From Stentor roeselii (lineage: Eukaryota > Ciliophora > Heterotrichea > Heterotrichida > Stentoridae), in NCBI GenBank assembly GCA_006503475.1, contig RSEH01000389.1:1-28332 (forward strand): 28,332 nucleotides of DNA, written 5' to 3'. A program made the translations under genes and the position numbers. Below are positions 1-24,900 of this stretch, piece after piece (the first letter of the stretch is position 1; every line of letters begins with the position of its first letter). Under the pieces are notes generated by a model that worked only from the letters and a program-made list of their open reading frames with translations, was not told where the DNA came from and ran no database searches.

Positions 1-1
1 T

Positions 2-1847: not shown

Positions 1848-3482
1848 ATGGCCGACATAGAAAGACTTCTCTTACAATTTGAACAGCAAGCATGTCGACA
1901 AAGAATGAAAACAATGCAAGATCTTTGCAATGAATATAGTGATAGTAGCCAGGCTACAAGAAAGCTCTGGGTAGCATCATTTCTCAAGTGCCAAGAAGAA
2001 AGGATATATGGGAGTCTTTTGTCAGAGAATAACACAATACTCCTATTTTTCTTCGAAAGACTAATAGAGAGCTTGAAAGTATTGAATATCTCTGCAAATT
2101 CTTCAATCATTCACAATTCAATCGACTCAATCTTAACCAAAGAATTAACAGAATTGGACTCTTTAGAAAAGATAAGAACTCTTCTATTTTTATCAAATGC
2201 TTATGATAGAAGCGATCAGATACCCTATCAATACTTGCCACTAGCCATAAAAAAAATCTCAGATATAACCAACGAAATTTTGATGAATCCTAACAAAACA
2301 ATTGAAGATATTAAAAGATTTCTGGCAATTTACTTACAGTTAGTCTCATTAATAGATATTTTTGAATTGACTCGGAGTGTCATCTTCAAAATTTGTCAAT
2401 TCATACGAAAAGAACTTGAAATTAACAACAGACAAGATATTGCCTCAGAATATTTTGTTGTCCTTTATACAATAAAAGAATTATGTGTAAATGAGATTGA
2501 GATTTCTGATATCGATTCAATGATATATGGAATTGGTCAATATTTCCAAATTAGCGCACCTAATGTAGTCTCCCCTGAAGTACCAGATTTACCCCCAGAT
2601 CTTAAAAGGTTGAACTTGGACCAAATGATATATATTAATACTCTTTTCATTAATAATATATCAGAATTAAGAGCCAAAGTTGATCTTGTAATGATTAATA
2701 ATCAGAATATGGTTCTTAAAATTTATGAAATTCCAGAATCTAGAAGGCAAGATATTGACAGAGTTTACAAAGAAGCTAGAATCTATCAAAAACTGAGTAC
2801 CTCTAATTGCAGATATTTTCTAAAATATTATGGCATTCATTTTGAACGAACTATACAATATCAAACAAATATAAACATGGTTAAATTAACTCTCGGTATT
2901 GAATACTGTAGAGTGTCCCTAGGAAATATAATAGATGAGAAAATTATTATGAGAATAAAATTCACCTCTCAAGAAATTGCTAAATTCACATTCGAGTTGA
3001 TTTTTGGATATTTGACCATGAGAGAATTAGGTGTTATTCATCAAGACATCAAACCTGATAAAATAATGATTGGAGATGATGGCAACATAAAAATTATTGG
3101 CTTTGGTGTTTCATATTTTAAAATGAATGGAGTTAGTTTCACAGGGAAAAAGATTTCTTCAGTAGTAGGAACTCAGGGCTACTTTAGCCCTGAAAAACTT
3201 AGGTGCTTTTTTAACAGAAATGTTAATGCACCTGAGTTGAAATATGACCCTGAATATTCTGATGTTTTTTCTTTAGGTCTGGTTTTTTATCAGATGATAA
3301 CTTTAAGAGAAATAATCTTATACCAGAGGGTTTCCGATTTGCATAATGAGATTGATCAATACACCGAAATAGATAAAAATATCAGAACACTTGTTAAAAG
3401 GATGCTAGCTGAAAATCCTGATGATCGGGTAAATTTCGCAGAAGCTTTGACATGGTTTAATTTAGATAGAATAGTAGTTTAA
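1848..3482 (+). CDS. Helical-domain + degenerate protein kinase (probable pseudokinase)
   Basis: A 544-residue protein. Residues 1-245 are an all-helical, Leu/Ile-rich domain I do not recognise, and about 255-540 form a kinase fold. Kinase landmarks: no glycine loop is evident; the ATP-site Lys is K291 (MVLKIYE), followed by a helix-C Glu (KEARIYQKL); the catalytic loop is H398-Q-D400-I-K402, with Lys at the position of the metal-binding Asn (K405); DFG is changed to G418-F-G420, losing the magnesium Asp. YFSPEKL replaces the APE region. Losing both metal ligands argues for a pseudokinase acting as a scaffold or regulator. The ATG at 1848 follows TATAAAT and gives the same N-terminal layout as the paralog at 3731. 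The kinase half is almost identical in DNA to that paralog, while the N-terminal half is much more diverged. Stop is TAA. Expanded kinase families are known in ciliates; this subfamily's role is unknown. Confidence 0.88.
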   Translation: MADIERLLLQFEQQACRQRMKTMQDLCNEYSDSSQATRKLWVASFLKCQEERIYGSLLSENNTILLFFFERLIESLKVLNISANSSIIHNSIDSILTKELTELDSLEKIRTLLFLSNAYDRSDQIPYQYLPLAIKKISDITNEILMNPNKTIEDIKRFLAIYLQLVSLIDIFELTRSVIFKICQFIRKELEINNRQDIASEYFVVLYTIKELCVNEIEISDIDSMIYGIGQYFQISAPNVVSPEVPDLPPDLKRLNLDQMIYINTLFINNISELRAKVDLVMINNQNMVLKIYEIPESRRQDIDRVYKEARIYQKLSTSNCRYFLKYYGIHFERTIQYQTNINMVKLTLGIEYCRVSLGNIIDEKIIMRIKFTSQEIAKFTFELIFGYLTMRELGVIHQDIKPDKIMIGDDGNIKIIGFGVSYFKMNGVSFTGKKISSVVGTQGYFSPEKLRCFFNRNVNAPELKYDPEYSDVFSLGLVFYQMITLREIILYQRVSDLHNEIDQYTEIDKNIRTLVKRMLAENPDDRVNFAEALTWFNLDRIVV

Positions 3483-3662
3483 ATATCGGGGATTCCTTAG
3501 TTTGAATAAAAAAATTTAGATAAATTGATGAGGGTTGAGTGATTTTAAAATTCTTACTAGAGATCTAGAAGGTCCTTAATTTTTAAAAACAGGCTATCAT
3601 TCAATTATATTCTTAAAAATTTATATCATCTTAGACAATATCTAAGATAATTAAACTATAAG

Positions 3663-3712
3663 TTTATTGTCTATATAAATGTCTATATTTATTGTCTATA
3701 TTTATTATCTAT
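3663..3712. repeat. Short tandem repeat upstream of kinase-like gene
   Basis: Four imperfect copies of a 12-13 bp unit, consensus TTTATTGTCTATA, lie 20-70 bases before the start codon at 3731. A single ATTGTCTATA also lies just before the start of the paralog at 1848. The sharing suggests a promoter element amplified in this copy, although simple slippage of AT-rich DNA could also produce it. Confidence 0.6.
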
Positions 3713-3730
3713 ATTATATTTATAAATAAA

Positions 3731-5542
3731 ATGAATAATATTGGAATACTTACTGCGCGATTCCAACAAGTTTTGATGCAAAGAAATTATGAGATCACAC
3801 ATCTGAACACAAAAGAATCTCTTTGCAGGGACTATACAAATTGTGATCGTGATTTACAGAAATTTTGGATTTCATCTATTCTCTATCATCAAGAAGCCCA
3901 AACATTCGGAACACTTCTTTTACCCTCAAATCAGCTACTCTTAGGCTTCTTTAAATTTTCGATAGAAAACATTCAAAATTTAGGTTATTTCGAGGATTCA
4001 GTCATATTCCATAGATCAATCGATTCAATCTTAACCAAAGAGTTGAATGATTGCCTAACTATAGATGATCTTCAAAGACTCCTCGATGCAATTAGTTCAT
4101 ATGCTCACAGTGACCAGATAGAGTACAAATATTTTCCTCTTGCCATTCAGAAGATATCAACTATTACAATGAACTTTTTGATGAATCCTGCAAAATCAGC
4201 TGAAAGTCTCCAAAACTTTATAACGAGTTACTTGAAATTAGCATTCATTCCACATGTCACTGAGTTGACTTGGACAGTAATTTTCATAGTTTGTGAATTT
4301 ATCGAAACTGAGATTTTTATTAAAAGAAATTATCAAATTGCCTCAAAATGTAAAGCCTTCCTTTTTGAATTAGATAAGGTTTGCATTAATCAACACCAGA
4401 AGACTAACGTTATGTCTTTAATAAAAAAAATCGAACCGATTATTCAAAGAATTTTACCTGGTGATAACCAAGTTGATCCACTAAATGATATTAGGTCAAG
4501 TTTAGACTTAAATCTAGCTTTAAATCGATCAAGAATTTTTGTTTCTGAAATCAATTCTATGATATGTAGAATTGAACAAATCTGCCAAATCACAGCACCT
4601 AATGAAGTATCCCCTGCAGTATCAGATTTACCCCCAGATCTTAAAAGGTTGAACTTGGACCAAATGATATATATTCGTAATCTTTTCAATAACCAAGTAT
4701 CAGAATTCCCAAGAGCCAAAGTTGATCTTGTAATGATTAATAATCAGAATATGGTTCTTAAGATTTATGAAATTCCAGAATCTAGAAGGCAAGATATTGA
4801 AAAAGTTTACAAAGAAGCTAGAATCTATCAAAAACTGAGTACCTCTAATAGCAGTTATTTTCTAAGATATTATGGCATTCATTTTGAACGAACTATACAA
4901 TATCAAACAAATATAAGTATGGTTAAATTAATCCTCGGCATTGAATACTGTAACGAGTCCCTAGGAAATAGAATAAATGAGAAAATAAAGAGCCGAACAA
5001 GCTTCACCTCCCAAGAGATTGCTAAATTCACATTCGAGTTGATTTTTGGATATCAGACCATGAGAGAATTAGGTGTTATTCATCAAGACATCAAACCTGA
5101 TAATATAATGATTGGAGATGATGACAACATAAAAATTATTGACTTTGATGTTTCATTTTTTAAAATGAGTGGAGTTACTTTCACAGGGAAAATGATTTCT
5201 TTAGTAGTAGGAACCCATGGCTACTATAGCCCTGAAAAACTTAGGTGCTTAGTTAACAGAAATAATAATGCACCTGAGTTGCAATATGACCCTGAATATT
5301 CTGATGTTTTTTCTTTAGGTCTGATTTTTTATCAGATGATAACTTTAAGAGAGCAAATCTTATACCTGAGGGTTTCCGATTTGCATAATCACATTGATCA
5401 ATACACCGAAATAGATCCAAATATCAGAACACTTGTTAAAAAGATGCTAGGTGAATATCCAAATGATCGGGTAAATTTCGCGAGGGCTTTAGAAATGGTT
5501 CCATATAGACGGAATAATAATGGAACATTGGGTGGTCCTTAG
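3731..5542 (+). CDS. Helical-domain + kinase-like protein, tandem paralog
   Basis: A 603-residue paralog of the gene at 1848. I start it at the ATG at 3731: the frame is open further upstream but has no earlier ATG, and 3731 follows a TATAAATA stretch and gives an N-terminus equivalent to the paralog. The N-terminal helical domain (about 1-305) is diverged from the paralog and carries roughly 60 extra residues near 225-285. The kinase part runs from about 315 to 595: Lys K344, catalytic loop H451-Q-D453 with K455 and a retained N458, and DFG changed to D471-F-D473. Of the three copies this has the most complete catalytic set, so activity is possible. The C-terminus ends in a short Asn/Gly-rich tail with a TAG stop. 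The 3' flank (to about 5576) is also shared with the paralog's 3' flank, so the duplication unit included it. Confidence 0.88.
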   Translation: MNNIGILTARFQQVLMQRNYEITHLNTKESLCRDYTNCDRDLQKFWISSILYHQEAQTFGTLLLPSNQLLLGFFKFSIENIQNLGYFEDSVIFHRSIDSILTKELNDCLTIDDLQRLLDAISSYAHSDQIEYKYFPLAIQKISTITMNFLMNPAKSAESLQNFITSYLKLAFIPHVTELTWTVIFIVCEFIETEIFIKRNYQIASKCKAFLFELDKVCINQHQKTNVMSLIKKIEPIIQRILPGDNQVDPLNDIRSSLDLNLALNRSRIFVSEINSMICRIEQICQITAPNEVSPAVSDLPPDLKRLNLDQMIYIRNLFNNQVSEFPRAKVDLVMINNQNMVLKIYEIPESRRQDIEKVYKEARIYQKLSTSNSSYFLRYYGIHFERTIQYQTNISMVKLILGIEYCNESLGNRINEKIKSRTSFTSQEIAKFTFELIFGYQTMRELGVIHQDIKPDNIMIGDDDNIKIIDFDVSFFKMSGVTFTGKMISLVVGTHGYYSPEKLRCLVNRNNNAPELQYDPEYSDVFSLGLIFYQMITLREQILYLRVSDLHNHIDQYTEIDPNIRTLVKKMLGEYPNDRVNFARALEMVPYRRNNNGTLGGP

Positions 5543-5576
5543 TTAGAATAAAAAAATTTCAATAAATGGATGAGGT

Positions 5577-5991
5577 TGTAAGCACTCGGATCTTCATTCG
5601 GTATCTGTGGTCCCATCCAGCATATCCATCGACAACTAGAGATATGGTCAATCGTCCTCTGCTTGTTGATTCTCCAAGAATTTTCAGGCAAAGAATATTA
5701 ACCTTTCCACCAGATATCATTCTTTGAGAAGTCCTCCTCGACAATCCGCTTATCTTTAGGCGATTGTCCAGTAGCCTTAGCCGAGTATGCACAGATGGCT
5801 CCAAAGCTAGCGATGGTCGTGTTTCTTGTGAGGTGATTCGCAGGTTCTTTGCCGATTCTCATCTCGTAGTACTCGGGGATCCTGAAGTTACGATAGATGT
5901 GGTGATTGATGATATCCACGTCGCGCATCACTGTCTTGCCTGTGAAGTCATGAATTTCTGATGCCACTGCACGGTGCAGGAAATTGAACAT
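5577..5991 (-). pseudogene. PEPCK 5' fragment relic (left arm)
   Basis: An inverted, truncated copy of about the first 142 codons of the PEPCK gene at 16917. It keeps the ATG with its upstream TTATAA and the opening residues MFNFLHRAVASEIHDFTG. It has many amino-acid changes, loses the frame after the 'KNDIWW' segment (near 5700), and continues in a second frame to GPQIPNEDPSAYN-type sequence. It stops abruptly at about 5577, where DNA matching the kinase gene's 3' flank begins. It lacks the whole catalytic core (P-loop and metal-binding motifs), so it cannot encode an active enzyme. Confidence 0.92.
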
Positions 5992-6475
5992 TTATAACCA
6001 TTGAAGATATTAGAAAAAATATGTCTAAACATCATTGGACTGGCTAGTATTAGTTATAAGAAGTGCATAGGAAAAGGATTCGGTTTGGAGTAGAGAGGGA
6101 ATGAAAGATGCAGAAGTTTATTTTAAGGATAGCTGGATTGAAAGGATGAATCATGATGAATCGGAAAATGGGATGAGTCACTTGATAGACTCTTGAATTT
6201 TAACTTGTTTAGGTTCAATGAGTTACCAGGAAGAGCCAAGTGGGAATATTGAGAGATTATTTTTATGAAGGTTCTGATAACCATAGTTACTTTTAATCTC
6301 TCGACTTTATCGAACAGACTATTTTAGTATATGATAAATATGGACAATTAATCAGTAAATTCTATGGAAACGCTAAAATAGCCTTATGAAGTTAGAAAGA
6401 AAATTCAATATTTCACCCTCTAAAAATGCTTCTTACTCAGGATAAACAATTCTGTAAAATTAACTATTTCTAAAA
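5992..6475 (-). other. Left-arm copy of the RING gene / PEPCK intergenic spacer
   Basis: Inverted counterpart of 16427-16916, including the PEPCK upstream region and its start-proximal TTATAA. It is recognisable throughout with scattered substitutions and small indels. No gene of its own is seen. Divergence looks similar to that of the neighbouring relic genes, as expected if the whole arm drifts neutrally. Confidence 0.85.
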
Positions 6476-7223
6476 TTATTCCCAATAAATTCCTCACTTA
6501 CTTTTTTGATGTTCTGGTATTCCTGTTAAATGAGATTCAGGTTGAATTACTGGTAAGAAGGGGATAGGCTTTTGTTGAGAAATTGGTAAAGGAATCTTGC
6601 CACCTAAATTCGAAAGCTGGTTTAGATTCGGTTGAGGTGATGGAGAAGGAACAAATGTATATGGAATATTCATTTGATATGGAGGAATATCATTTATTGG
6701 ATTCAAGTTTCTATTAACTGGGTTAGACTGAATGAAAATTACTTGAGGTATTGGAGAACATTGGAAGTTTTGATTCAGGGCCCTGCAAATGTATAGATGC
6801 GTTTATACATGATTTACAATAAAAGTGAACTTTACAGGTAATTAAAAAAATCTTATCAATTCTAAAGATTTGCTCTCTGCAACCTCGACACTGAAAAAGT
6901 AAAAATTTAATACAATCTTCACAAGAAAATATTTCCTTCTTCAATGAAAGATTTAAATTGAAACCATGATCGAAACAATATTCACAAGTGCGGTGATTTT
7001 GGCAAAATGGTGAGCGAAATATCTTAAATTGTATTTTTGAAATCGATTTAATATGATCACATCCTTTATAATCCAAAGTACTAGAATATATTTTCAATTT
7101 TTTTATAGCAGTATCTTCTTCAAAATTTTCAATACACTCATAACAAATACTCTGATGCTCTTGCCTTAGAACTAAATTAAACGATTTATATGCATTGCAT
7201 TCACAACATTTGACTTCTGACAT
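6476..7223 (-). pseudogene. RING/prion-like protein gene relic (left arm)
   Basis: Inverted copy of the gene at 14033. The start is intact (ATG at 7223 after TTATAA), and the first 148 codons stay open and clearly match (MSEVKCCEC, CYEC, CEDC, CRGC, CKVHFYCKSC). At about 6780 the sequence jumps, joining parent position 14478 to 15441. This 962 bp loss removes the last C-x2-C pair of the RING and most of the Gln/Asn-rich region, and it shifts the frame so the ORF ends after 166 codons. The Pro/Gln-rich remainder (about 6494-6706) persists in another frame. A second loss at about 6475 removes the parent's C-terminal Cys cluster and stop. A truncated 166-residue product could still be made, but it would have an incomplete RING. 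Confidence 0.9.
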
Positions 7224-7329
7224 TTATAATCAAATCATCTTAAATATAGAACCCATAAATTTAATAAATTTCTTCCCTATTTTCCAGTTCCCAAATCCTC
7301 ACAAACATCAAGTCTTTCCAAAGATTAAA

Positions 7330-7889
7330 ATTTTTGAAGTTAAAAAGTGCCAGTGGTTTTTGTCAGAACTTTCAAACTAAAGTCGAAGCTGAAAATCCTA
7401 GAAATATCTTTCATAAATCAGACCAAGCATTCAAGTGATACCAACAGCGAAGGAACAGTATGTTCACTGACAAACAAGCCGATATCAGTTCGAGAGACCT
7501 CGACCGTTACCTGAACAAGCAATTAACGGTTTAGAGAACTCAGAAACAATAAAGCCAGTGGCTTACATGAAATTCGCATCTCAAAAGAAAATCGATTATT
7601 TAAACAAAGTACGTGAATCGATCCGTAAAGAGCAGAAGCTTCAAAATTTAAAAAAATGATTTTATTCCGAGAGTTCCAACACGACGTGACAGTCTTTTAC
7701 ACCCTGGAGCTTACTATGACGGGGAAGGCCTGGAAAGTACAACAAGTGATGAATTGTTGAAGGACAACAAGTTCCTTTATATGACTTTGAACCTCAGTAA
7801 GTACCTGGGCTCGTCAATTGAGGACCTGGTCGAAAAGAATGTCATTTGTTTGAAGTACGACTTTATCGTTGACCAGAGCTTTTGCCCAT
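7330..7889 (+). pseudogene. Relic of the 443-residue unknown gene (left arm)
   Basis: Inverted copy of the 5' part of the gene at 12594-13925, covering about its first 195 codons. The start codon is lost (ATG changed to ATT, with a one-base deletion nearby). A stop follows after a few codons and several indels shift the frame, although stretches such as VAYMKFAS and FYTLEL remain recognisable. It ends at about 7889, where the deletion that removed parent positions 11396-13337 begins. About 27 bases of sequence I cannot trace to either side (7890-7916) lie at that junction. Confidence 0.9.
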
Positions 7890-7916
7890 TAGATTAATTT
7901 TCAAATCATCAACAAA

Positions 7917-8774
7917 ATCTTCACTGTTTATGTTAGCGAGTAAACGATGCAGTTTTTGTGTGCAATAGACTTGAGCACACCGAGGTGCAGAACTTCTCTG
8001 AAATATATTCTGCCACATTTTAACTAATCAAAGTCTCTTTAAATGACTGAATAAGTGGGTCCAGATCACTCTGAAGTATCTCTTTACCCCTGTGAAGTTA
8101 GTTTAACCTTCTTCGTCAGTCTTACAAAACCCAATATCAATTTCTTCATCATCACTTGAAGAAGTATCTGCAGATCCTTGCAAGTAAAACTCTTTTATTA
8201 CATTTATCTGATTTTTTCCTTCGAAACATCAAGTTTATCAATTTTCGACTTGGTGATTTTTCATCAAATCTAAAAGAAATGGTCTTTTGAAGTTTTTTTT
8301 CATTTCAGGGATTTTTTTTGTCACATTTTTTTACTGGGTGGTTCACTCGAGTCATTCGTTTTCGTCGGTGATCCAGGCATGAACAAATTGAATCCTTCAA
8401 CATTTTCCACCTGTTTTATGCTTTTGACTTTCGACTTTCCAGTTGTTAAAATGTCCTGAAAATAAGATTCAAAAGAATTTCTCGTAAATTCGACCTTTTG
8501 TTGAAGCCAGCTCTTCGAACTTCTCCTTCATCGCCTGCAGTAGCTTTTCGACATAGAAAATCGGATAAAGTTCTTGATACATAGTTGCCAGAATAATCTC
8601 AAACTTCAGAAACAGTTCCTATTTCATGGTAAAGCAATTTTGGGTGAAGGAACTTAAGTGAGTTCGCTCTTGATGAAGCACTTGAACGATCAACACGTTT
8701 AAAGGCGCCCAAAGGTCGCCTTGGTTTCAGAGGACCAGTCCTTCGCTGGTAAATATGCAAAGCAGCTCAAAAAT
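7917..8774 (-). pseudogene. SRP receptor alpha relic, N-terminal half (left arm)
   Basis: Inverted copy of the first 290 or so codons of the SRPRA gene at 10525. It includes the SRX-like domain, the charged linker (the DTSSSDDEE region is recognisable near 8140) and the start of the N domain. The ATG has become ATT (8772-8774). Several frameshifts and stops break it, and the entire GTPase domain is missing because of the 1.94 kb deletion. It cannot make a functional receptor. Confidence 0.92.
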
Positions 8775-8912
8775 TTTGATGAATTCACGTTGAAATAAGT
8801 CAAATTCATCAGAATAGGACAGTTTCTGAAAATCTTTGATTTATTAGAATTTTCTCTATTTGATTAAAAGTTGAATTTGTTTTGATAGTTAAAATTTTCT
8901 AAGTTATAAACA
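8775..8912. promoter_or_regulatory. Left-arm copy of the divergent coiled-coil/SRPRA promoter
   Basis: Inverted counterpart of 10394-10524, the short spacer between the divergently transcribed coiled-coil and SRPRA genes. The AAGTTATAAACA before the coiled-coil start is preserved. Whether it still drives transcription cannot be seen. Confidence 0.65.
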
Positions 8913-9072
8913 ATGGATGAACAGTCAGCGGTAAAATCCAGAATCGAAACTAAGACAAGACATTGAAGATCTAAAGACCAATAAGGGAAAAGTTATGAGT
9001 GACTCTTCTGTTCCGAAGTCTGTAAAAGACCGGTTCTTAGACATGATGAGATCTTTGAAAATGTCGATGGTT
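8913..9072 (+). pseudogene. Coiled-coil gene 5' relic at the end of the left arm
   Basis: Inverted copy of about the first 54 codons of the gene at 9695-10393. The ATG and its TTATAA context survive, but an early indel shifts the frame within the first 15 codons. Similarity ends abruptly after ATGTCGATGGT at 9072 and is replaced by unrelated AT-rich sequence. This is the inner breakpoint of the inverted duplication. Confidence 0.9.
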
Positions 9073-9166
9073 TAAAAAAAATCGATATTTATTTACAAAG
9101 ATATCGTATATTCACTGTTCAAGATACTTATAATGATTGACAATAAAAGCTTTCTGCAGATGCTGC

Positions 9167-9553
9167 ATGGCTCATGAAGTGTTTTACGCTGAAGACTTCG
9201 AAAGTGATGATGATTCTGTTCAAAATGTTTATCTTAACCCTGTCTCGCAAATTTCATTCTTTCCTTATCAGAATGAGGAAATCGCGAAGGACTATTCTCC
9301 AGCTTTTCATGATGAGAAGTCGGTTCAATGTGAAGAAAGTGCTCCTGCTTCTTTGATATCTCTCAGTCAGATGCCATCTATCAGTACTTCTTCTCTAGAC
9401 AAAGTAATCATTCCGAGTAAAAAGACCTTTGAACTAGTGCATACTCCTAAAGTTTCAATTAATTTCATCGGAAAACATTTTAAATGCAGAAGATGCGGCT
9501 TTGTTTTTAAAAATGATCAAGAATTAACTGACCATTTAACTAAATATCATTAA
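9167..9553 (+). CDS. Small C2H2 zinc-finger protein
   Basis: A 128-residue protein from the first in-frame ATG (9167). It has an acidic N-terminal part (EDFESDDDS), a Ser-rich middle and one classical C2H2 finger at the C-terminus (C-R-R-C, 12 residues, H-x4-H in FKCRRCGFVFKNDQELTDH). A single finger suggests RNA or protein binding, or a small DNA-binding factor; the target is unknown. The frame is open 10 codons upstream of this ATG to an in-frame TGA at 9134-9136, and those codons include CRCC, which looks like another metal site. The true N-terminus may therefore have been cut off when the inverted arm was joined about 90 bases upstream. It lies in the loop and has no copy in the left arm. 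It converges on the coiled-coil gene (141 bp gap). Stop is TAA. Confidence 0.72.
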   Translation: MAHEVFYAEDFESDDDSVQNVYLNPVSQISFFPYQNEEIAKDYSPAFHDEKSVQCEESAPASLISLSQMPSISTSSLDKVIIPSKKTFELVHTPKVSINFIGKHFKCRRCGFVFKNDQELTDHLTKYH

Positions 9554-9694
9554 TAGACCATACTTTAATATATTCCTAATTCAAATAATCACATCAAATA
9601 TAATCATTTTTAAATTTTCTTCGAATATTTAAATAATCTCTTGATTTTCTATTGATTTAATCAAAAACAACCAACTTGACTATGAATTAATTTA

Positions 9695-10393
9695 TTAGAA
9701 ATTGTTACGAAGAAGTGCCTCCGCATGAGAACTCGGCTGCAACAACACCCGTCGTTTAGGAATATCTTTTATTTCCTTCTGACTTCCATTCTCCCCTTCA
9801 AGTCTTTCAAGTCTTCCTTTCAAAAGTGTGATCAACTCAAAAACTTCAGAATTTTCACTTTGAATCCTTGCCAAATTCCTTCTAAGTTCTTGATTCTCCA
9901 CTTCCAAGACCTCCATTCTCTGTTCATACTCAGAGTGTCGATGTTCTTCAAGATGTTCTTGAGCCTTTTGTATGATTCCGCAGATATCGTCAAGTTCTTT
10001 GTTAAGAACAGCAGGAACTTCTTCTGAAAACGAGACCTGACTGAAGACTTTCGAAGAAGACCTGGAAGTTTTTTTTATATTTAAAGGCGGTTTGGGTTCA
10101 ATAGTTTGCATGAGTTGAAAAAGTGATTTTTTCACTTCTTCATATTCAAACCTCAACTTTTCAATACGTACTTTAAGAGCTTTACTTGGAAGTGACTCTG
10201 ACCGGAGCTGGGAACATTTTGACATGACTTGGACCATCGACATTTTCAAAGATCTCATCACGTCTAAGAACCGGTCTTTTACAGACTTCGGAATAGAAGA
10301 GTCACTCATGACTTTTTCCTTATTGGTCTTAAGATCTTCAATGTCTTGTCTTAATTTCGATTCCCAGGATTTTACCGCTGACAGTTCATCCAT
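9695..10393 (-). CDS. Coiled-coil protein of unknown function
   Basis: A 232-residue protein, highly charged and helical. Residues 1-100 are Lys/Glu-rich helices. A short Ser/Pro-containing linker follows (about 95-125, with SRSSSKVF). Residues about 130-215 have a strong heptad-like pattern (ENQELRRNLARIQSENSEV) typical of a parallel coiled coil. There are no membrane segments and no catalytic motif. The ATG at 10393 follows TTATAAACA. It is divergent from SRPRA across a 131 bp spacer, so the two may share a promoter region; a functional link is not shown. Its first 54 codons also exist as a relic at 8913-9072. Stop is TAA. I do not recognise the family. Confidence 0.82.
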   Translation of the reverse strand: MDELSAVKSWESKLRQDIEDLKTNKEKVMSDSSIPKSVKDRFLDVMRSLKMSMVQVMSKCSQLRSESLPSKALKVRIEKLRFEYEEVKKSLFQLMQTIEPKPPLNIKKTSRSSSKVFSQVSFSEEVPAVLNKELDDICGIIQKAQEHLEEHRHSEYEQRMEVLEVENQELRRNLARIQSENSEVFELITLLKGRLERLEGENGSQKEIKDIPKRRVLLQPSSHAEALLRNNF

Positions 10394-10524
10394 TGTTTAT
10401 AACTTAGAAATTTTTAACTATCCAAAAAAAGGAACTTAATCAAATAGAGAAAAATTCTAATAAAGATTTTAAGAAACTGTCCTATTCTGATGATTTTGAC
10501 TTATTTCAACGTGGACTCATAAAA
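10394..10524. promoter_or_regulatory. Divergent promoter region, coiled-coil gene / SRPRA
   Basis: A 131 bp AT-rich spacer between two head-to-head genes. The minus-strand start is preceded by TTATAAACA and the plus-strand start by CATAAAA. With so little space, both promoters must lie here or overlap the coding regions. Confidence 0.6.
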
Positions 10525-12111
10525 ATGTTTGAGCTACTTTGCATATTTACCAGCGGAGGACTGGTCCTTTGGAACCAAGGCGACCTGTGGGCGCCTTTAA
10601 ACGTGTTGATCGCTCAAGTGCTTCAGCAAGAGCGAACTCACTTAAGCTCCTTCACCCACAATGGCTTTACGATGAAATGGGAATTGCTTCCTAAGTTTGA
10701 GATTATTCTAGCAGCTGTGTATCAAGAACTTTACCCGATTTTCTATGTCGAAAAGCTACTTCAGGCGATGAAGGAGAAGTTCGAAGAGCTGGCTTCGACA
10801 AAAGGGTCGAATTTACGAGAAATTCAATTTGAACCTTATTTTCAGGACATTTTTAACAACTGGAAAGTTGAAAGTCAAAAACATAAAAGACAGGTGGAAA
10901 ATGTTGAAGGATTCAATTTGTTCATGCCTGGATCACCGACGAAAACGAATGACTCGAGTGAACCGGCTAGTAAAAAAAACGTCACGAAAAAAAGCCCTGA
11001 AAAGAAAAAAAGCATCAAAAGACCTGCCATGTCTTTTGGAATTGATGAAAAAATCACCAAGTCGAAAATTGATAAACTTGATTTTTCGAAGGAAAAAAAT
11101 CAGACAAATGTGAAAAAAGAGTCTTACTTGCAAGGATCTGCTGATACTTCTTCGAGTGATGATGAAGAACCTGCTACTGGGTTTTTTGCGAGACTGACGA
11201 ATAAGGTTAAACTTAACTTCACAGGGGGTAAGGAAATACTTCAGAGTGATCTGGACCCGCTGATTCAGTCATTTAAAGAGACTTTGATTAGCAAAAATGT
11301 GGCAGAACATATTTCAGAACAGTTCTGCACCTCGGTGTGCTCAAGTCTATTGCATACAAAAACTGCATCGTTTACGTCGCTAGCATCAACTGTGAAGACA
11401 GCTTTATCAAGTTCAATAGAAAAACTCCTAACCCCCGAAAACTACAAAGATATCCTAAGAGACGCTCTTGCCTCAAAATCGCGTCAACAGCCATACGTGA
11501 TAGTTTTTTGCGGAATAAACGGTGTAGGAAAGTCCACAAGTCTCGCAAAGGTTGGTTACTACCTAAAGACCAAAGGAAACCTAAGCCTGTTGATCGCAGC
11601 ATGCGACACTTTCAGGTCCGGAGCGATAGAACAGTTGAGAGTCCACTCAAACACTTTAGAAGTTCCTCTATTCGAGCAAGGTTACGGAAAAGAGCCAGGA
11701 CTAGTCGCGAGAGAAGCTGTGAAATACGCAGCAACAAGAAACTTCGACGTTGTCCTTGTTGACACAGCAGGCCGGATGCAGCACAATGAAGCTTTAATGG
11801 TTCCTTTGGCGTATTTAGTCGACGTCAACAATCCTGACGCTGTCCTCTTCGTCGGAGAAGCTCTCGTCGGAAATGATGGGGTCGACCAGCTTGTCACTTT
11901 CAACAAGGCACTTAGGGAAAAGACTCAAAATGGCAGAGGGGTCGATGGCGTTATTCTTACCAAATTCGATTCTGTTGATAATAAAGTCGGAGCTGCTCTT
12001 TCCATGGTCTATTCAACTGGAAAACCTATTATTTTCATTGGGGTAGGCGAAAAATATCCACATTTGAAGAAGTTGAATGCTCGTACTGTCGTTAGAAGCT
12101 TGCTCAACTAA
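10525..12111 (+). CDS. SRPRA: Signal recognition particle receptor subunit alpha
   Basis: SRP receptor alpha is the GTPase that docks the ribosome-SRP complex at the ER membrane. At 528 residues this protein is shorter than the human one (about 640), mainly in the linker. Residues 1-130 match the SRX domain that binds the beta subunit (MFELLCIFTSGGLVLW start). Residues about 135-220 are a Lys/Ser-rich charged linker. The NG domain follows: N helices about 235-315, then GTPase motifs G1 GINGVGKST (330-338), G2 region DTFRSGA, G3 DTAGRM (413-418), G4 TKFD (479-482) and a closing GVGE loop. All key residues are present. The ATG at 10525 gives the typical SRX start. A relic of its N-terminal half lies at 7917-8774. 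TAA stop, 17 bp from the stop of the convergent small ORF. Confidence 0.96.
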   Translation: MFELLCIFTSGGLVLWNQGDLWAPLNVLIAQVLQQERTHLSSFTHNGFTMKWELLPKFEIILAAVYQELYPIFYVEKLLQAMKEKFEELASTKGSNLREIQFEPYFQDIFNNWKVESQKHKRQVENVEGFNLFMPGSPTKTNDSSEPASKKNVTKKSPEKKKSIKRPAMSFGIDEKITKSKIDKLDFSKEKNQTNVKKESYLQGSADTSSSDDEEPATGFFARLTNKVKLNFTGGKEILQSDLDPLIQSFKETLISKNVAEHISEQFCTSVCSSLLHTKTASFTSLASTVKTALSSSIEKLLTPENYKDILRDALASKSRQQPYVIVFCGINGVGKSTSLAKVGYYLKTKGNLSLLIAACDTFRSGAIEQLRVHSNTLEVPLFEQGYGKEPGLVAREAVKYAATRNFDVVLVDTAGRMQHNEALMVPLAYLVDVNNPDAVLFVGEALVGNDGVDQLVTFNKALREKTQNGRGVDGVILTKFDSVDNKVGAALSMVYSTGKPIIFIGVGEKYPHLKKLNARTVVRSLLN

Positions 12112-12128
12112 GTAGTTATTAGAATAGT

Positions 12129-12467
12129 TTAATTCGAATATCGGTATTTTTCTATCAACGTCAAAAGCTCTTTGGATGAGATTTTGTTTGGCCTTTGATG
12201 GTTTTTTAAACTTGGAAGAACTTTTGTTGAACGAGTTGGACTTAAGAAGGTGGGACTGCTGAGATATACGGAGGGACCTAAGATTTTTTGGGTGGATGAA
12301 GACTTTTTGGATAACTTTGATTGGATTTCTGAAGATCTTTTCGTTTTGAAAGCGAAGTAACCGGCTAGGTGCAGGTCGTTTTGGCTGTTGTAGTAGTTTA
12401 GTCGGCTTTTATGTTGGTTGCAGCAGTCAAGGATGAAATTTTTCTTTTCTGGTGAGTTTTCATCCAT
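12129..12467 (-). CDS. Small hypothetical protein
   Basis: A 112-residue ORF with ATG and TAA, tightly placed between the SRPRA stop (17 bp away) and the 443-residue gene, which it follows on the same strand. The product is basic and Ser/Lys-rich (KLSKKSSSTQK; SSPTFLSPTRS), predicted disordered, with a short helical end (SKELLTLIEKY). Its composition resembles real genes here rather than a shadow ORF, and no competing frame exists. The block containing it is missing from the left arm, so no copy is available for comparison. No family recognised. Confidence 0.55.
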   Translation of the reverse strand: MDENSPEKKNFILDCCNQHKSRLNYYNSQNDLHLAGYFAFKTKRSSEIQSKLSKKSSSTQKILGPSVYLSSPTFLSPTRSTKVLPSLKNHQRPNKISSKELLTLIEKYRYSN

Positions 12468-12593
12468 CTTCTAATCAGAATTACAGAGGACTGAAAAAGA
12501 TAGGAAGGATTTTCATTAACCCTTAGTTGCAAGAGGCTAAATATTAAGATTATGGATTTTTTGGTTAAATTTCAGCCATTTATACCCAAATGC

Positions 12594-13925
12594 TTATTTA
12601 ATTGTTTGAATCAGCTGATAAGGGGAAATGATTCTTGGAAGCGACTTCACCTTTTTAACCTTCTTGCTTTTTTTCGTCTTATTCCTTTTTTTCCTTTTTT
12701 TTCCCCCTTCAAGATTCGGCAACGAATCCCTGGCGATTTGCAACTTCGCAATTCTTTTATTTCTACTTTCCATGATCCTCTCTTCTTCAATCTTCAAAAA
12801 GCTGCTAAGAGTATTACTCGGTTTGAGTCCCGAGAAAATATAATTAGTAGAATTCAGATTTCTCGAAGACTTCGCATTCTTGATTTCCGGCAATTTTAAA
12901 GTACTCGCAAGAGAAAAGCTTAAACTCGACTTGGTCAATTCAGGGAGGACCGGCTGAGGCGATTTCGAAGTTTGAAGTCCTTTGCGGTTACTTTCACTTC
13001 CTTCAGTGAGTGTCAACGGAACAGGTGTGACTTGTTCAGAGTTAATCAAGTGACTCATCCTTCCAATCATTCTTTTTTTGTTAGGTTTCAGTTCTGGGTC
13101 AAGAAATGTGGAAATAAAACTCATGAAAATACTTGTATAAGCCGCTTTTTTAACAGGCGCAGGACTGATCGTTTCCGGGTCAGGTTCTTTCACGACTGTC
13201 GGAATCCTCGGGTAGTTGATTCCTTTGTAGTCATTTTTTACGAGTGTTAAATTTTCCAGTCCGTCAGCGTTCATCCCTTTGTTCAAGGCGATGATCTTGG
13301 GGTGGACTAGTTTGATAAGCGAGATGTAAAGAATGACTGGGCAGAAGTTCTGGTCAACGATAAAGTCGTACTTCAAACGAATCACGTTCTTTTCAACCAG
13401 GTCCTCAATTGACGAGACCAGGTACTTGCTGAGGTTCAAAGTCATGTAAAGGAACTTGTTGTCCTTCAACGATACATCACTTGTTGTCTCTCGTCGGAAA
13501 AGAGTACTTTCCAGGCCTTCCCCGTCATAGTAAAGCTCCAGGGTGTAAAAGACTGTCGCGTCGTGTTGGAACTCTTGGAATAAAATCAGTTCTTTTAAAT
13601 TGTGAAGCTTCTGCTCTTTACGGATTGATTCACGTACTTCGTTTAAATAAGCGACTTTCTTGTGTGATGCGAATTTCATGTAAGCCACTGGCTTTATTGT
13701 CTCTGAGTTCTCTAAACCGTTTAAACGCTTGTTTAGGTAACGGTCGAGGGTCTCTCGAACTGATATCGGCTTGTTTGTCAGTGAACATACTGTTCCTTCG
13801 CTGTTGGTATAGAAAATTGAATCTGCTTGGTCTGATTTTATGAAAGATATTTCTAGGATTTTCAGCTTCGCCTTTAGTTTTGAAAGTTCTGACAAAAACC
13901 ACTGGTACTTTTTAACTTCAAACAT
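12594..13925 (-). CDS. Unknown protein with very basic C-terminus
   Basis: A 443-residue protein not recognised with confidence. Residues 1-220 look like a mixed alpha/beta globular domain, including FYTLELYYDG and RLKYDFIVDQNFCPVI. The latter pattern, a charged strand followed by 'D-x-N-x-x-P', resembles sequences seen in other ciliate proteins, but I cannot name the domain. Residues about 230-400 are Ser/Pro-rich and probably disordered. Residues about 405-430 are a dense Lys/Arg cluster (GKKRKKRNKTKKSKKVKK) that could act as a nuclear or nucleolar signal or bind RNA. The ATG at 13925 follows ATTAAAA. It is divergent from the RING gene across 107 bp. A relic of its 5' 195 codons is at 7330-7889. 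Stop is TAA. Confidence 0.85.
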   Translation of the reverse strand: MFEVKKYQWFLSELSKLKAKLKILEISFIKSDQADSIFYTNSEGTVCSLTNKPISVRETLDRYLNKRLNGLENSETIKPVAYMKFASHKKVAYLNEVRESIRKEQKLHNLKELILFQEFQHDATVFYTLELYYDGEGLESTLFRRETTSDVSLKDNKFLYMTLNLSKYLVSSIEDLVEKNVIRLKYDFIVDQNFCPVILYISLIKLVHPKIIALNKGMNADGLENLTLVKNDYKGINYPRIPTVVKEPDPETISPAPVKKAAYTSIFMSFISTFLDPELKPNKKRMIGRMSHLINSEQVTPVPLTLTEGSESNRKGLQTSKSPQPVLPELTKSSLSFSLASTLKLPEIKNAKSSRNLNSTNYIFSGLKPSNTLSSFLKIEEERIMESRNKRIAKLQIARDSLPNLEGGKKRKKRNKTKKSKKVKKVKSLPRIISPYQLIQTIK

Positions 13926-14032
13926 TTTTAATCTATGGAGGGACTTGATGTTTCTGAGGATTTGGGAACTGGAAAATAGGGAGGAAATTTATTAGATTTA
14001 TGGGTTCTATATTTTAGATGATTTGATTATAA
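13926..14032. promoter_or_regulatory. Divergent promoter region, 443-residue gene / RING gene
   Basis: A 107 bp spacer between two head-to-head genes. The plus-strand side ends in TTATAA directly joined to the RING gene ATG (14027-14035); the minus-strand side ends in ATTAAAA before ATG. It is conserved in the left arm at 7224-7329. Confidence 0.6.
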
Positions 14033-14035
14033 ATG
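14027..14035 (+). promoter_or_regulatory. Start-proximal TTATAAATG motif (RING gene)
   Basis: TTATAA runs directly into the ATG. The same arrangement is found at PEPCK (16911-16919), at the HExxH gene (24892-24900, minus) and in the left-arm copies. It may be a transcription-start or TATA-like element. Confidence 0.5.
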
Positions 14036-16396
14036 TCAGAAGTCAAGTGTTGTGAATGCGATGCAAATAAATCGTTTAATTTAGTTCTAAGGCAAGAGTA
14101 TCAGAAAAATATTTGCTATGAATGTATTGAAAATTTTGAAGAAGATACTGCTATAAAAAAATTGAAAATATATTCTTATACTTCGGATTATAAAGGATGT
14201 TATCATAATAATCGGTCTTCAAGTATGAGAGGTATGACATTTCGCTCACCATTTTGTAAAAATCACCGTACTTGTGAAGATTGTTTCGATTATGGATTCA
14301 ATTTAAATTTTTCATTGAAGAAGGAAATATTTACTTGTGAAGATTGTATTAAAATTTTACTTTTTCAGTGTCGAGGTTGCAAAGTGCCAATCTCTAGAAC
14401 TGATAAGATTTTTTTGATAACCTGCAAAGTTCATTTTTATTGTAAATCATGTATAAACGCATCTATACATTTGCAGGGGACTTGCAACTTTTGTAAAAAA
14501 ATTGAGGATATGGAAAAGAGATATAAAAATCGAGGAATGAAAACATATTTCGAAATGGATCACATAGAACACAAACCATTAGATCTAAGAGTCATTTTAC
14601 ATGAAAATTGTGAGAAACTTTATCTAGATATTTACAATAATGATCCCAAAGGATGCTCATCTTGCTCCGAACTATTTCAAATTATAAGAGATAAGCTTAA
14701 TATAAATGATAAACAAAATCATAGACTGATAAAATATCAACAGATTATAAATAATAAAAAAGGATATAGCCCGGCAAACTCAGAAAATATAAATTTTGGC
14801 AATGAAATGATGAATGATAGTAATAATTTAGCCTATCAAAATTATAACCACAGCAGTTCTAGTGTTTATAATCCTCTTCAAAATACCTACACTCAAAGTT
14901 ATATTCCAAATTCCTACAATCAAGGGTATCAAGAATCTAACATTTCTGGATTTCCCCAGACTTATCCAGACTTTAACCAGACTCCACCACAAAATATGTA
15001 TGAGCAAAATTACGGTAATCAATATGGAATGAGCCCGAGCAGTGTCAATCAAATAATTATGCCTGGTCAATATTTTAACAACTCATCAGGGATGAACCCG
15101 AGTAGTGTAAATCAAGAAATACCTCAAAACTATCCTCAATTTAGCCAATCAAATCCAGCCATTAGATATCCAAAACAACCTGAAAATCCAGGCTGGCCTT
15201 CTACTTTCTTACAAACAAATCAATACAATCCCCAGCTCTACCATCAGAGCAATCCAGGCTTTCAACAAATTTCATCATATCAAGGCTATGTTACCCAAAA
15301 TGCAAATTATAATAAAAACTATTCAGAACCACAATCAAGCTACAGCAATATGAATACAGGTATACCTCCATTAACAAATCAATTTCCATACAATCATGGA
15401 GTTCCAGCAGTTAATTCTATGCCATCCCAAGTCGCTCCTGCCCTGAATCAAAATTTCCAACATTCTCCAATACCTCAAGTAATTTTCATTCAGGCTAGCC
15501 CAGCCAATAGAAACTTGAATCCAATAAATCCTATTCCCCTAAATCAAATGAATATTCCATATCAAGGTGTTCCTTCTCCATCACCTCAACCGAATCTAAG
15601 CCAGGTCTCGAATTTAGTTGGCAAGATTCCTTTACCTATTTCTCAACAAAAGCCTATTCCCATCTCACCAGCAATTCAACCTAAACCTAATTTAAGCGGG
15701 ATATCAGAACATCAAAAAAGCAATTCAAGTGAGGAATTTATTGGGAATAATCCAAGGCACTCTACTTATAATGCAATAAGAGTAACGAAAAATAAAGGAG
15801 TCAATCTAGTTAAAGATAAAAGTCAACCAAATCCAATATCTTCACTTTATCAAACCGCTAATCACCCTAATCCTTCGAATTCTGGAAACTTAAAAGATCA
15901 ATCAGGGCGCACTATCTCTCAAGAGACCAAAACAAATGAAAATCAGAAACCATCAGAAAGTAAATGTAAAGTTTCCAATGTTGCAAATGATTTACACACA
16001 CTTAACAGAAGAAACCAATTAAAACAGTGCGAGTACCACAATGACTCGATAATCTTACTTAACTGCAGACATTCTATCTGCAAAAAAGGAGTCGAAGAAA
16101 TGATGATTGTTAAGCTCTGCAATATGTGTTCTTTGATACACCAAAAAAAATTGGAAGAACTTAATCGCTTACAATTCAGCATCGGCTGCATCAGTGACTG
16201 CTTCTGTAAGAATCTTTTTTCTTTTGATGAATTTTTCACCTCTGCTTATCAAGTTTTTGTGCAATATTCGATTCATCGGAACTTATGGTTTTGCATCGGT
16301 TTTTTGTTCGATGGAGGAAGGCTTGAGTTTAATCTGTGTAAATGCGGATGCGATTCAGTCACTCTTGGTGGTTTTGGGTGCTACAAGCAAGTTTAG
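14033..16396 (+). CDS. RING-finger protein with long prion-like Q/N/P/Y-rich region
   Basis: A 787-residue protein. A canonical C3HC4 RING spacing is visible: C113-x2-C116-x14-C131-x2-H134-x2-C137-x2-C140-x10-C151-x2-C154, suggesting an E3 ubiquitin ligase. More Cys pairs precede it (C6/C7/C9, C28/C31, C81/C84, C102/C105) and C208/C211 follow. Residues about 245-645 are Gln/Asn/Pro/Ser/Tyr-rich, with an internal duplication (YGMSPSSVNQ and SGMNPSSVNQ) and a prion-like composition that may drive condensate formation. A second Cys/His cluster (C666-x2-H669, C678-R-H680-x2-C683, C696-x2-C699) is RING-like but lacks one ligand pair, and a Cys-rich tail ends at 787. The ATG abuts TTATAA. Stop is TAG. 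A truncated relic lies at 6476-7223. Substrates are unknown. Confidence 0.85.
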   Translation: MSEVKCCECDANKSFNLVLRQEYQKNICYECIENFEEDTAIKKLKIYSYTSDYKGCYHNNRSSSMRGMTFRSPFCKNHRTCEDCFDYGFNLNFSLKKEIFTCEDCIKILLFQCRGCKVPISRTDKIFLITCKVHFYCKSCINASIHLQGTCNFCKKIEDMEKRYKNRGMKTYFEMDHIEHKPLDLRVILHENCEKLYLDIYNNDPKGCSSCSELFQIIRDKLNINDKQNHRLIKYQQIINNKKGYSPANSENINFGNEMMNDSNNLAYQNYNHSSSSVYNPLQNTYTQSYIPNSYNQGYQESNISGFPQTYPDFNQTPPQNMYEQNYGNQYGMSPSSVNQIIMPGQYFNNSSGMNPSSVNQEIPQNYPQFSQSNPAIRYPKQPENPGWPSTFLQTNQYNPQLYHQSNPGFQQISSYQGYVTQNANYNKNYSEPQSSYSNMNTGIPPLTNQFPYNHGVPAVNSMPSQVAPALNQNFQHSPIPQVIFIQASPANRNLNPINPIPLNQMNIPYQGVPSPSPQPNLSQVSNLVGKIPLPISQQKPIPISPAIQPKPNLSGISEHQKSNSSEEFIGNNPRHSTYNAIRVTKNKGVNLVKDKSQPNPISSLYQTANHPNPSNSGNLKDQSGRTISQETKTNENQKPSESKCKVSNVANDLHTLNRRNQLKQCEYHNDSIILLNCRHSICKKGVEEMMIVKLCNMCSLIHQKKLEELNRLQFSIGCISDCFCKNLFSFDEFFTSAYQVFVQYSIHRNLWFCIGFLFDGGRLEFNLCKCGCDSVTLGGFGCYKQV

Positions 16397-16916
16397 ATTT
16401 TTAGTCTTAATATGAATTATGTTGAATTTTAGAAATAGTTAGATTTTGCAGGATTGTTCATCCTGAGTTCGAAATATTTTTAGAAGGTAAAATATTTAAT
16501 AATCTTTCTAGCTTCATAAGGCCATTTTAGTATCCCCATAGAATTTACTGATTAATTGTCCATATTTATCATATACTAAAATAGCCTGTTCGATAGAGTC
16601 GAGAGACTAAAAGCAACTATGGTTATCAGAACCTTCATAATAATAATCACTCAATATTCCCACTTGGCTCTTCCTGGTAACAACTCATTGAAACCTAAAC
16701 AATTCAAAATTCAAGAGTCTATCAAATATTTCATTCAATATTTCCGATTCATCAAGATTCATCCTTTCAATCCAGCAGTCCTCGAAATAAACTTCTGCAT
16801 CTTTCATTCCCTCTCCACCCAAAACCAAATCCTATTCCTATGCACTTCTTATAACTAATAATCGATAGTGCTATGATGTTTTGACATATTTTTTCTAATA
16901 TCTTCAATGGTTATAA
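16397..16916. other. Intergenic spacer between RING gene and PEPCK
   Basis: A 520 bp AT-rich region with no convincing gene. A 79-codon plus-strand ORF at 16619 is not preserved as an open frame in the left-arm copy and has noncoding-like composition. The last bases, GGTTATAA, lead straight into the PEPCK ATG. The segment from about 16427 on is matched by 5992-6475. Confidence 0.6.
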
Positions 16917-16919
16917 ATG
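16911..16919 (+). promoter_or_regulatory. Start-proximal TTATAAATG motif (PEPCK)
   Basis: TTATAA joined to the ATG of PEPCK, as in several other genes of this window, and also retained in the inverted relic copy near 5991. Confidence 0.5.
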
Positions 16920-18572
16920 TTCAATTTCCTGCGCCGTGCAGTGGCATCAGAAATCCATGACTTCACAGGCAACACAGCGATGCGCAACCTGGGAATCATC
17001 AATCGCCACATCTATCGTAACTTGAGGGTCCCCGAGTACTACGAGATGGGAGTCGGCAAAGAACCTGCCAATCCCCTCACAAGAAACACGACCATCGCCA
17101 GCTCTGGAGCCATCTGTGCTTACTCAGCGAAAGCTACTGGAAGATCCCCGAAAGATAAGAGGATTGTCGAGGAGGACTTCTCCAAGAATGATATCTGGTG
17201 GGGAAAGGTCAATATACCTTTGCCTGAAAATTCCTGGAGTATCAACAAGCAGAGGGCGATTGACTATTTGAATAACCGACCATATCTTTATGTCGTCGAT
17301 GGATATGCTGGATGGGACCACAGATACCGAATGAAGATCCGAGTGCTTACAACTAGAGCCTATCATGCTCTCTTTATGCACAACATGTTGATTCGCCCAA
17401 CTAGAGATGAGCTCTTGAATGACTTTGACAACATTGACTTCCATATTCTGAATGCAGGAGAGTTCCCAGCAGACAAGAACACTCCAGGAGTGACTTCACA
17501 AACATCCGTGAACGTAAACCTTAAAGAGCGAATGATGGTAATTCTGGGCACTCAGTACGCAGGAGAAATGAAGAAAGGAGTCTTTGGAGTTATGCACTAC
17601 TTTATGCCTAAGCAAGGAGTTGTTTCACTTCACGCAAGTGCGAACGAAGGACCAAAAGGAGACACTACTTTGTTGTTTGGTTTATCAGGGACAGGTAAAA
17701 CTACTCTCAGTGCTGACCCTCACAGAAGGCTAATTGGAGATGACGAGCATTGCTGGAGCGATACCGGAATTTTCAACATCGAGGGAGGATGCTACGCGAA
17801 ATGCATAAACTTATCCGCTGAAACCGAGCCAGAGATTTACAACGCAATAAAATTCGGTTCAATTCTGGAAAACGTTCAATTCTTCCAAGGTACCCGAGAC
17901 GTGAACTACGCTGACATATCACTGACCGAAAACACGAGATGTTCATACCCACTCGAATACATTCCTGATGTGAAGCTTCCCGCAATTGGAGGCCATCCTA
18001 AAAACGTGATTTTCCTGACATGCGACGCTTACGGAGTCCTTCCACCAGTATCCAAGCTGACACCAGAGCAAACAATGTACCACTTCATGTCAGGGTACAC
18101 CGCGAAGGTAGCAGGCACTGAAATCGGAATCACTGAGCCTCAGCCTACTTTTTCAGCTTGTTTCGGAGAAGCTTTTCTGGCTCTCCACCCAAGTCTTTAT
18201 GCGAAGATGCTCGCTGAAAAACTTGTCAAACATGGAGCGAACTGTTGGCTGATCAACACTGGATGGAGCGGGGGAAAGTACGGAGTTGGGAAAAGAATGA
18301 GCTTGAAGATCACTAGAAAGATTTTAGATGAAATCCATGCAGGAAACCTTGATAATGTACCGACGAGGACTTTGCCAGTATTTGGACTGAATGTACCTGA
18401 GTCTGTGAATGGAGTGCCGAATGAAGTTATTTGGCCAAAGGACTCGTGGAGCAATAAAGAAGACTATGATAATACTCTTTATAAATTGGGAAAGGCTTTT
18501 GCTGACAACTTCAAGAAATACGAAGCTGGAAGTGCACCTGAAATCAAAGCTGCAGGACCTAAGTTAGCTTAA
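16917..18572 (+). CDS. PCK1: Phosphoenolpyruvate carboxykinase (ATP-dependent)
   Basis: The enzyme converts oxaloacetate and ATP to phosphoenolpyruvate, CO2 and ADP, the entry step of gluconeogenesis. The 551 residues match the usual length of the ATP-type enzyme (about 530-550). Landmarks: the NTGWSGGKYGVGKRM segment, P-loop GLSGTGKTT (255-263), and the ATP-type signature LIGDDEHCW (272-280) with the metal-binding Asp pair. No key residue looks lost. The first residues (MFNFLRRAVASE) are basic and amphipathic, which could be a weak mitochondrial presequence; the C-terminus (PKLA) is not a peroxisomal signal. The ATG at 16917 directly follows TTATAA. Its 3' end is 12 bp from the stop of the convergent J-protein gene. 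Codon use is less AT-biased than in the kinase family, as expected of a highly expressed gene. A decayed 5' copy is at 5577-5991. Confidence 0.97.
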   Translation: MFNFLRRAVASEIHDFTGNTAMRNLGIINRHIYRNLRVPEYYEMGVGKEPANPLTRNTTIASSGAICAYSAKATGRSPKDKRIVEEDFSKNDIWWGKVNIPLPENSWSINKQRAIDYLNNRPYLYVVDGYAGWDHRYRMKIRVLTTRAYHALFMHNMLIRPTRDELLNDFDNIDFHILNAGEFPADKNTPGVTSQTSVNVNLKERMMVILGTQYAGEMKKGVFGVMHYFMPKQGVVSLHASANEGPKGDTTLLFGLSGTGKTTLSADPHRRLIGDDEHCWSDTGIFNIEGGCYAKCINLSAETEPEIYNAIKFGSILENVQFFQGTRDVNYADISLTENTRCSYPLEYIPDVKLPAIGGHPKNVIFLTCDAYGVLPPVSKLTPEQTMYHFMSGYTAKVAGTEIGITEPQPTFSACFGEAFLALHPSLYAKMLAEKLVKHGANCWLINTGWSGGKYGVGKRMSLKITRKILDEIHAGNLDNVPTRTLPVFGLNVPESVNGVPNEVIWPKDSWSNKEDYDNTLYKLGKAFADNFKKYEAGSAPEIKAAGPKLA

Positions 18573-18584
18573 TTAGTTGAATGG

Positions 18585-19547: not shown

Positions 19548-19633
19548 ATATGAGGGTTTTTTAAGTTTAAGATATTCTTCCTACTTGAGAGTAAAACTCT
19601 TGGAGGTTTATTTCTTTGTTTAAATTGGTTAGT

Positions 19634-24894: not shown

Positions 24895-24900
24895 TTATAA
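24892..24900 (-). promoter_or_regulatory. Start-proximal TTATAAATG motif (HExxH gene)
   Basis: TTATAA joined directly to the ATG on the minus strand, the same arrangement as at the RING and PEPCK genes. Confidence 0.5.

Follow-up and report, generated by a model that had tools for sequence, protein, structure and literature searches.

The palindromic rDNA minichromosome of Tetrahymena is a large inverted repeat about a short centre, which is programmed, perfect and amplified. Inverted duplications of the fold-back type are represented in the human series considered here by 21 sequenced junctions, in which the spacer measures 766-70,466 bases (median 3,428), 13 junctions display 2-8 bases of microhomology, three show long repeat homology and five carry insertions (PMC3907307). 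In yeast, fold-back inversions that arise via single-stranded hairpins are described, with loops that can measure thousands of nucleotides and with a second rearrangement that stabilises the inverted end (PMC7467729). For heterotrich ciliates, the account of the Blepharisma stoltei somatic genome gives CCCTAACA as its telomere repeat and mentions some truncated pseudogenes (PMC9942806). A narrow literature search, which does not imply absence from print, found no inverted duplication in a ciliate macronuclear genome.

The window, that is, the whole stretch of DNA analysed here, is the entire contig C333 (28,332 bases) of a genome assembly of 44.4 Mb in 522 contigs. Three-unit tandems of CCCTAACA gave 220 + 327 matches genome-wide (overlaps counted), whereas the control, the same pattern reversed, gave 0 + 0; this is in keeping with the ciliate somatic genome that the first-pass annotation of this DNA had expected. 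Arrays of the repeat lie within 10 bases of the start of several contigs (C26, C40, C48, C56 and C70), and one was present among 20 contig starts that were examined (C464). Judged by these sequence features, the host is likely to have a somatic genome of the heterotrich type. Searches of the window with Rfam (gathering threshold) and with ARAGORN (bacterial code) returned zero matches.

Two arms of unequal length and condition

Self-comparison of the window confirms, at the level of the assembled sequence, that a large inverted duplication is present and that only one of its arms is intact, the other being decayed. In reverse complement, 5575-9071 aligns with 10233-17353 in four collinear blocks that run through five genes. 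The first-pass annotation had paired 5577-9072 with 10233-17362 and had proposed a self dot plot as one check; the inverted, collinear, five-gene arrangement stands, and the true ends lie at 5575 and 17353. The blocks pair, each in inverted orientation, 7918-9071 with 10233-11398 (90.4% identity), 6781-7888 with 13338-14478 (90.2%), 6475-6781 with 15440-15751 (87.8%), and 5575-6477 with 16425-17353 (88.3%). Summed, they contain 3,185 identical columns out of 3,557 (89.5%), the remainder being 278 mismatches and 94 gap columns, and they score 392-1557 bits, as compared to a best score of 31 bits among 50 dinucleotide shuffles of the left arm. The right arm (10233..17353, forward strand), the intact parent with open reading frames, is 7,121 bases long, of which the blocks cover 3,548, and the left arm (5575..9071, reverse strand), the decayed inverted copy, is 3,497 bases long. 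The lengths are unequal because three stretches are absent from the left arm, namely 1,939, 961 and 673 right-arm bases at 11398/13338, 14478/15440 and 15751/16425, respectively. At the first of these deletions the left arm carries a 29-base filler, the only template for which within the window is one 12-base match; at the other two there are overlaps of 1 and 3 bases.

All five right-arm ORFs are uninterrupted, as the earlier description of this arm as open had it. They comprise a 232-aa ORF that by eye is coiled-coil-like (9695..10393, reverse strand), of which just the first ~54 codons fall inside the duplicated part; an intact SRP receptor alpha (10525..12111, forward; SRP54-type GTPase domain PF00448, 5.1e-55, and PF04086, 3.4e-15); orf443 (12594..13925, reverse); orf787 (14033..16396, forward), with a Cys-rich N-terminal part and a Pro/Gln/Asn-rich middle by eye; and an intact ATP-type PEP carboxykinase (PEPCK; 16917..18572, forward; PF01293, 1.6e-215). 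Pfam searches gave no match for the coiled-coil-like ORF, orf443 or orf787. Read from left to right, the left arm contains the PEPCK N-terminal part (residues 1 to ~153 only), two pieces of orf787, and then orf443, SRP receptor and coiled-coil-like N-terminal parts; the ends of the duplication cut two genes, those for PEPCK and the coiled-coil-like protein. The decay of these copies had been described as lost starts, frameshifts and missing catalytic domains. Frame-shifting indels do occur in all five (1, 12, 8, 3 and 4 across the five genes), and one of the three internal deletions has removed the GTPase domain from the SRP receptor copy, but start codons are lost in only two of the five, the SRP receptor and orf443 (which retains its N-terminal part), and are retained in the other three. 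The TGRSP motif of PEPCK, present in five of five solved chains shown and in the right arm, is altered in the left arm (R76Q). Of the gap runs, 35 fall in the left arm as compared to 4 in the right; the decay is thus one-sided, being confined mainly to the left arm while the right arm stays intact.

Junctions, loop and the contig that ends in the loop

To the left of the duplication lies a tandem array of divergent protein kinase genes (1..5542, forward strand), consisting of one fragment truncated by the contig edge and two long genes, and related to arrays on contigs C35 and C203. The far end of the left arm is joined to this array, which is foreign to it, at 5575-5578 by four bases, GTTG, that are common to the kinase 3' flank (in its C203 version) and to the PEPCK copy. 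It is also here, at positions 576-579 of a 4,072-base query (window 5575-5578), that the 3' ends of four related kinase genes (one on this contig, one on C35 and two on C203) cease to match.

The loop between the arms (9072..10232) had been put at about 1.16 kb and measures 1,161 bases. It contains the C-terminal part of the coiled-coil-like gene and a small Cys/His-containing ORF that is zinc-finger-like by eye and has zero Pfam matches. The assembly contains no second full copy of the loop, but over the first 260 bases the loop is 97% identical to the terminal part of C203. At the inner junction (9071..9073) the left-arm similarity stops at 9071 and the C203 similarity starts at 9073, with at most ~2 bases of microhomology visible, blurred by divergence. 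C203 (61,031 bases) itself starts within a kinase array that is 89.6% identical to window 1772-3667, carries other sequence on the left side of the loop, and comes to its end after matching 9073-9332. Its terminal 139 bases are identical to 9194..9332, a possible assembly fork or collapsed second locus, and all the differences from the window (seven mismatches and a 2-base gap) lie within the 121 ungapped columns that precede this stretch (one-sided p=0.0043 for the clustering, with the split point picked post hoc). The frame of the loop ORF in C203 is open up to the contig end; in the window version, which is 2 bases shorter, it meets a stop after 14 codons, with an in-frame ATG at 9167. C203 could represent an older form of the chromosome that lacks the left arm, another haplotype, or the outcome of a fork in the assembly. 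The link from the left arm to the intact arm could likewise be a structural variant or stem from such a fork.

Other partial copies and dispersed families

A search of the genome with the right-arm DNA recovered, as the best candidates, the parent, the left arm, a copy on contig C181 and a single 81-base match at 77% identity (C92). Searches with three of the five proteins, those of PEPCK, the SRP receptor and orf787, retrieved these copies or distant homologues; no second full copy of PEPCK or of the SRP receptor was found in the genome among the best candidates, the other SRP-receptor match (C356) being 34% identical and limited to the GTPase part. The C181 copy (C181:705-7393) aligns with window 17517-23450 in three main pieces; a telomere array occupies positions 107-154 of the contig, at a distance of 0.55 kb. 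It is a decayed PEPCK/DnaJ region, whose PEPCK piece covers residues 200-551 with eight stops. Its PEPCK and DnaJ part has a dS of 0.411 ± 0.039, unlike the 0.12 ± 0.03 of its o750 part, and the C181 copy is therefore itself a mosaic. For the PEPCK pieces alone, dS is 0.209 ± 0.053 in the left arm and 0.403 ± 0.052 in C181. The silent divergence of 0.41 points to the C181 copy as a separate event, older than the one that would have produced the left arm.

Beyond the copy, C181 has at 7393-9726 an ORF with AAA-ATPase_like (PF09820) and PDDEXK_9 (PF08011) domains, and the border at C181:7393 is common to five other matches (C70, C476 and C252), marking a dispersed family with a defined edge. Positions 1-106 of the same contig, outside its telomere array, are non-telomeric and GC-richer, and may be an artefact of an adapter or a read end. 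Both the window (19690-20650) and C181 (4024-5334) hold a broken-looking gene with kinase and EF-hand parts (CDPK-like, from Pfam pieces); the breaks fall at different places in the two, and introns are possible. The window holds a second inverted pair, 23475-23846 with 25888-26258 (93%), in which a fragment of the o750 gene has been copied 2 kb away; relatives of this fragment or its parent gene occur on C435, C522, C453 and elsewhere as a dispersed family. We considered and rejected a three-tile arrangement in which the left arm, the C181 copy and 25888-26258 were parts of one duplicate, given the o750 relatives elsewhere and the unlike dS values. Among the 58 matches listed for window 18600-28332, the terminal segment 27784-28332 belongs to a family seen on many contigs, at several of them at the contig end, and once ~0.75 kb from the C464 telomere array. 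Window 28173-28332 and C462:11797-11956 share the same homologous end base, with 155 of 160 positions identical, including all of the last 21. The first-pass annotation had held a fold-back duplication of this size to be unusual in compact somatic DNA, which may or may not be so. Inverted pairs of at least 200 bases numbered 0, versus 12 direct pairs, in 77,032 bases from six other stretches, a small and biased sample picked for similarity to the window.

Age, origin and described systems

Across 892 codons the arms differ with a dS of 0.152 ± 0.018 and a dN of 0.061 ± 0.006, a ratio of 0.41 (0.32 for the coiled-coil-like gene, 0.28 for the SRP receptor, 0.48 for orf443, 0.66 for orf787 and 0.27 for PEPCK). 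This is slightly below the ~0.5 expected for a copy dead from birth, and may reflect either a copy that was once functional or a bias at silent sites. Outside the five ORFs, 66 of 723 positions differ (9.1%), which is below the silent-site divergence, and the age is therefore only rough. Exact runs of at least 21 bases between the arms number 46 and total 1,454 bases (shuffled mean 1,078), the longest being 75 bases (shuffled mean 58; p=0.088); homogenisation of the arms by gene conversion is thus not clearly indicated by the sequence. A recent somatic macronuclear rearrangement would require near-identical copies and was rejected, since the silent divergence and the one-sided pseudogene decay disfavour it; the same sequence evidence favours an old, germline-inherited duplication. 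Germline fixation and template switching or repair had been posed as alternatives by the first-pass annotation: the former fits best, but the two are not exclusive, as repair may have been the original cause.

We regard an old fold-back inverted duplication, transmitted through the germline and now decaying, as the probable origin of the locus. A break or stalled fork would have opened the chromosome immediately to the left of 9073, and the free end, doubling back on its own strand, would have served as a primer for synthesis from 10233, so that 9072-10232 stayed unduplicated as the loop. Rightward copying would then have proceeded to 17353, within PEPCK, where the new end would have switched or joined, via GTTG, to sequence flanking the 3' end of one kinase gene of a tandem array. 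The sequence to the left of 9073 would thereby have been lost from the rearranged chromosome, and may be preserved in C203. The second copy, truncated within two genes, would finally have lost function through small indels and the three internal deletions, with the right arm remaining intact. What the assembled sequence shows is the two arms with the loop between them, their breakpoints and junction bases, and the extent of decay and divergence; the order of events, the fold-back priming and the physical reality of the assembled adjacency we infer. This origin is favoured because collinear inverted arms adjoin across a short spacer, because other sequence joins the far end of the inverted arm through GTTG, because the best candidates in the genome included no further copy of the arm, and because decay is one-sided. 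Counted against it are an inner-junction microhomology of at most ~2 bases, blurred by divergence, a dN/dS slightly below that of a copy dead from birth, and the joining in C203 of other sequence to the loop, by which the left arm may not adjoin the intact arm at all.

This last point leads to an account in which the decayed copy resides elsewhere in the genome, at a locus with part of the loop in common, the true left neighbour of the intact locus being C203, and the assembly forks between the two. It is what one would expect from a contig that ends inside the loop with all its differences from the window ahead of an identical terminus, and from a loop ORF that stays open in C203 and stops early in the window. 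We nevertheless hold it to be unlikely, if worth serious attention: a fork leaves unexplained the breakpoint at 9073, which is separated from the identical stretch by 121 bases; the frame shift in the loop ORF is perhaps not fatal, given the downstream ATG, and either version may be the original; and a collapsed second haplotype predicts an identical picture. Further, the end shared by the window and C462 has just 21 terminal identical bases, and an overlap of 139 need not be a general mark of the assembler.

Two other accounts do without a fold-back beside the parent or enlarge it. Ordinary recombination or a copy-and-paste process could have inserted an inverted segmental duplicate next to its parent, with a later deletion bringing the arms close; the kinase array, the o750 fragment pair and the C181 copy are indeed further partial duplications in or around the contig, yet collinear inverted arms about a 1.16-kb spacer are the direct prediction of a fold-back, and the 15 bases flanking the arm on each outer side (5560-5574; 9072 onward) contain zero target-site duplication, making such an insertion improbable. 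Alternatively, a single long duplicate of 10233 to 23450, on a chromosome that was formerly a full palindrome, might have been split into the left arm and the C181 copy, which in parent coordinates end at 17353 and begin at 17517, respectively, both within PEPCK. The unequal dS of the two pieces (0.152 as against 0.411 for C181 PEPCK and DnaJ) and the coincidence of the C181 edge with a dispersed-family border, at which five other matches begin exactly at query 7239, render this very improbable. Turning to function, read-through transcription of the arms, with their 46 exact runs of at least 21 bases, might yield a long hairpin RNA and from it small RNAs against the SRP receptor and PEPCK, the decayed arm being kept as a silencer of what are the only full copies of these genes found in this genome; we consider this reading very improbable.

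Genome accidents of the fold-back type preferred here are already known, and this locus would be a well-preserved example of an ordinary kind, on a contig that also carries the kinase tandem array, the second inverted pair and the broken-looking kinase/EF-hand region. If the arms lie on one molecule, it would record fold-back repair in the germline of a ciliate as an old scar, in which the parent, the spacer and both junctions remain readable. Pseudogene arms beside single-copy genes such as those for PEPCK and the SRP receptor may also distort gene counts in somatic genomes of this type.

Unlike the Tetrahymena rDNA palindrome, the present pair is diverged and half-deleted. Blepharisma stoltei shares with this genome the CCCTAACA telomere repeats and a compact AT-rich somatic genome, and reads UGA as tryptophan (PMC9942806); here, TAA or TAG closes each of nine intact ORFs, which together contain 23 TGG and zero in-frame TGA codons, a count that is partly circular, as ORF calling used TGA as a stop. 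The yeast fold-back inversions share the possibility of a large loop and an inverted end stabilised by a second rearrangement; they are recent and were selected in mutants (PMC7467729), whereas the present case is known from assembled sequence. Compared to the human fold-back duplications, as covered by the junction series above, this one is found in a ciliate, spans kilobases rather than megabases, is old and decayed, and shows at most ~2 bases of inner microhomology after divergence; its 1,161-base spacer lies inside the human range, and the two have in common an inverted copy beside its parent (here, in the assembly), a short spacer that in this case is apparently unduplicated, and other sequence at the far end (PMC3907307).
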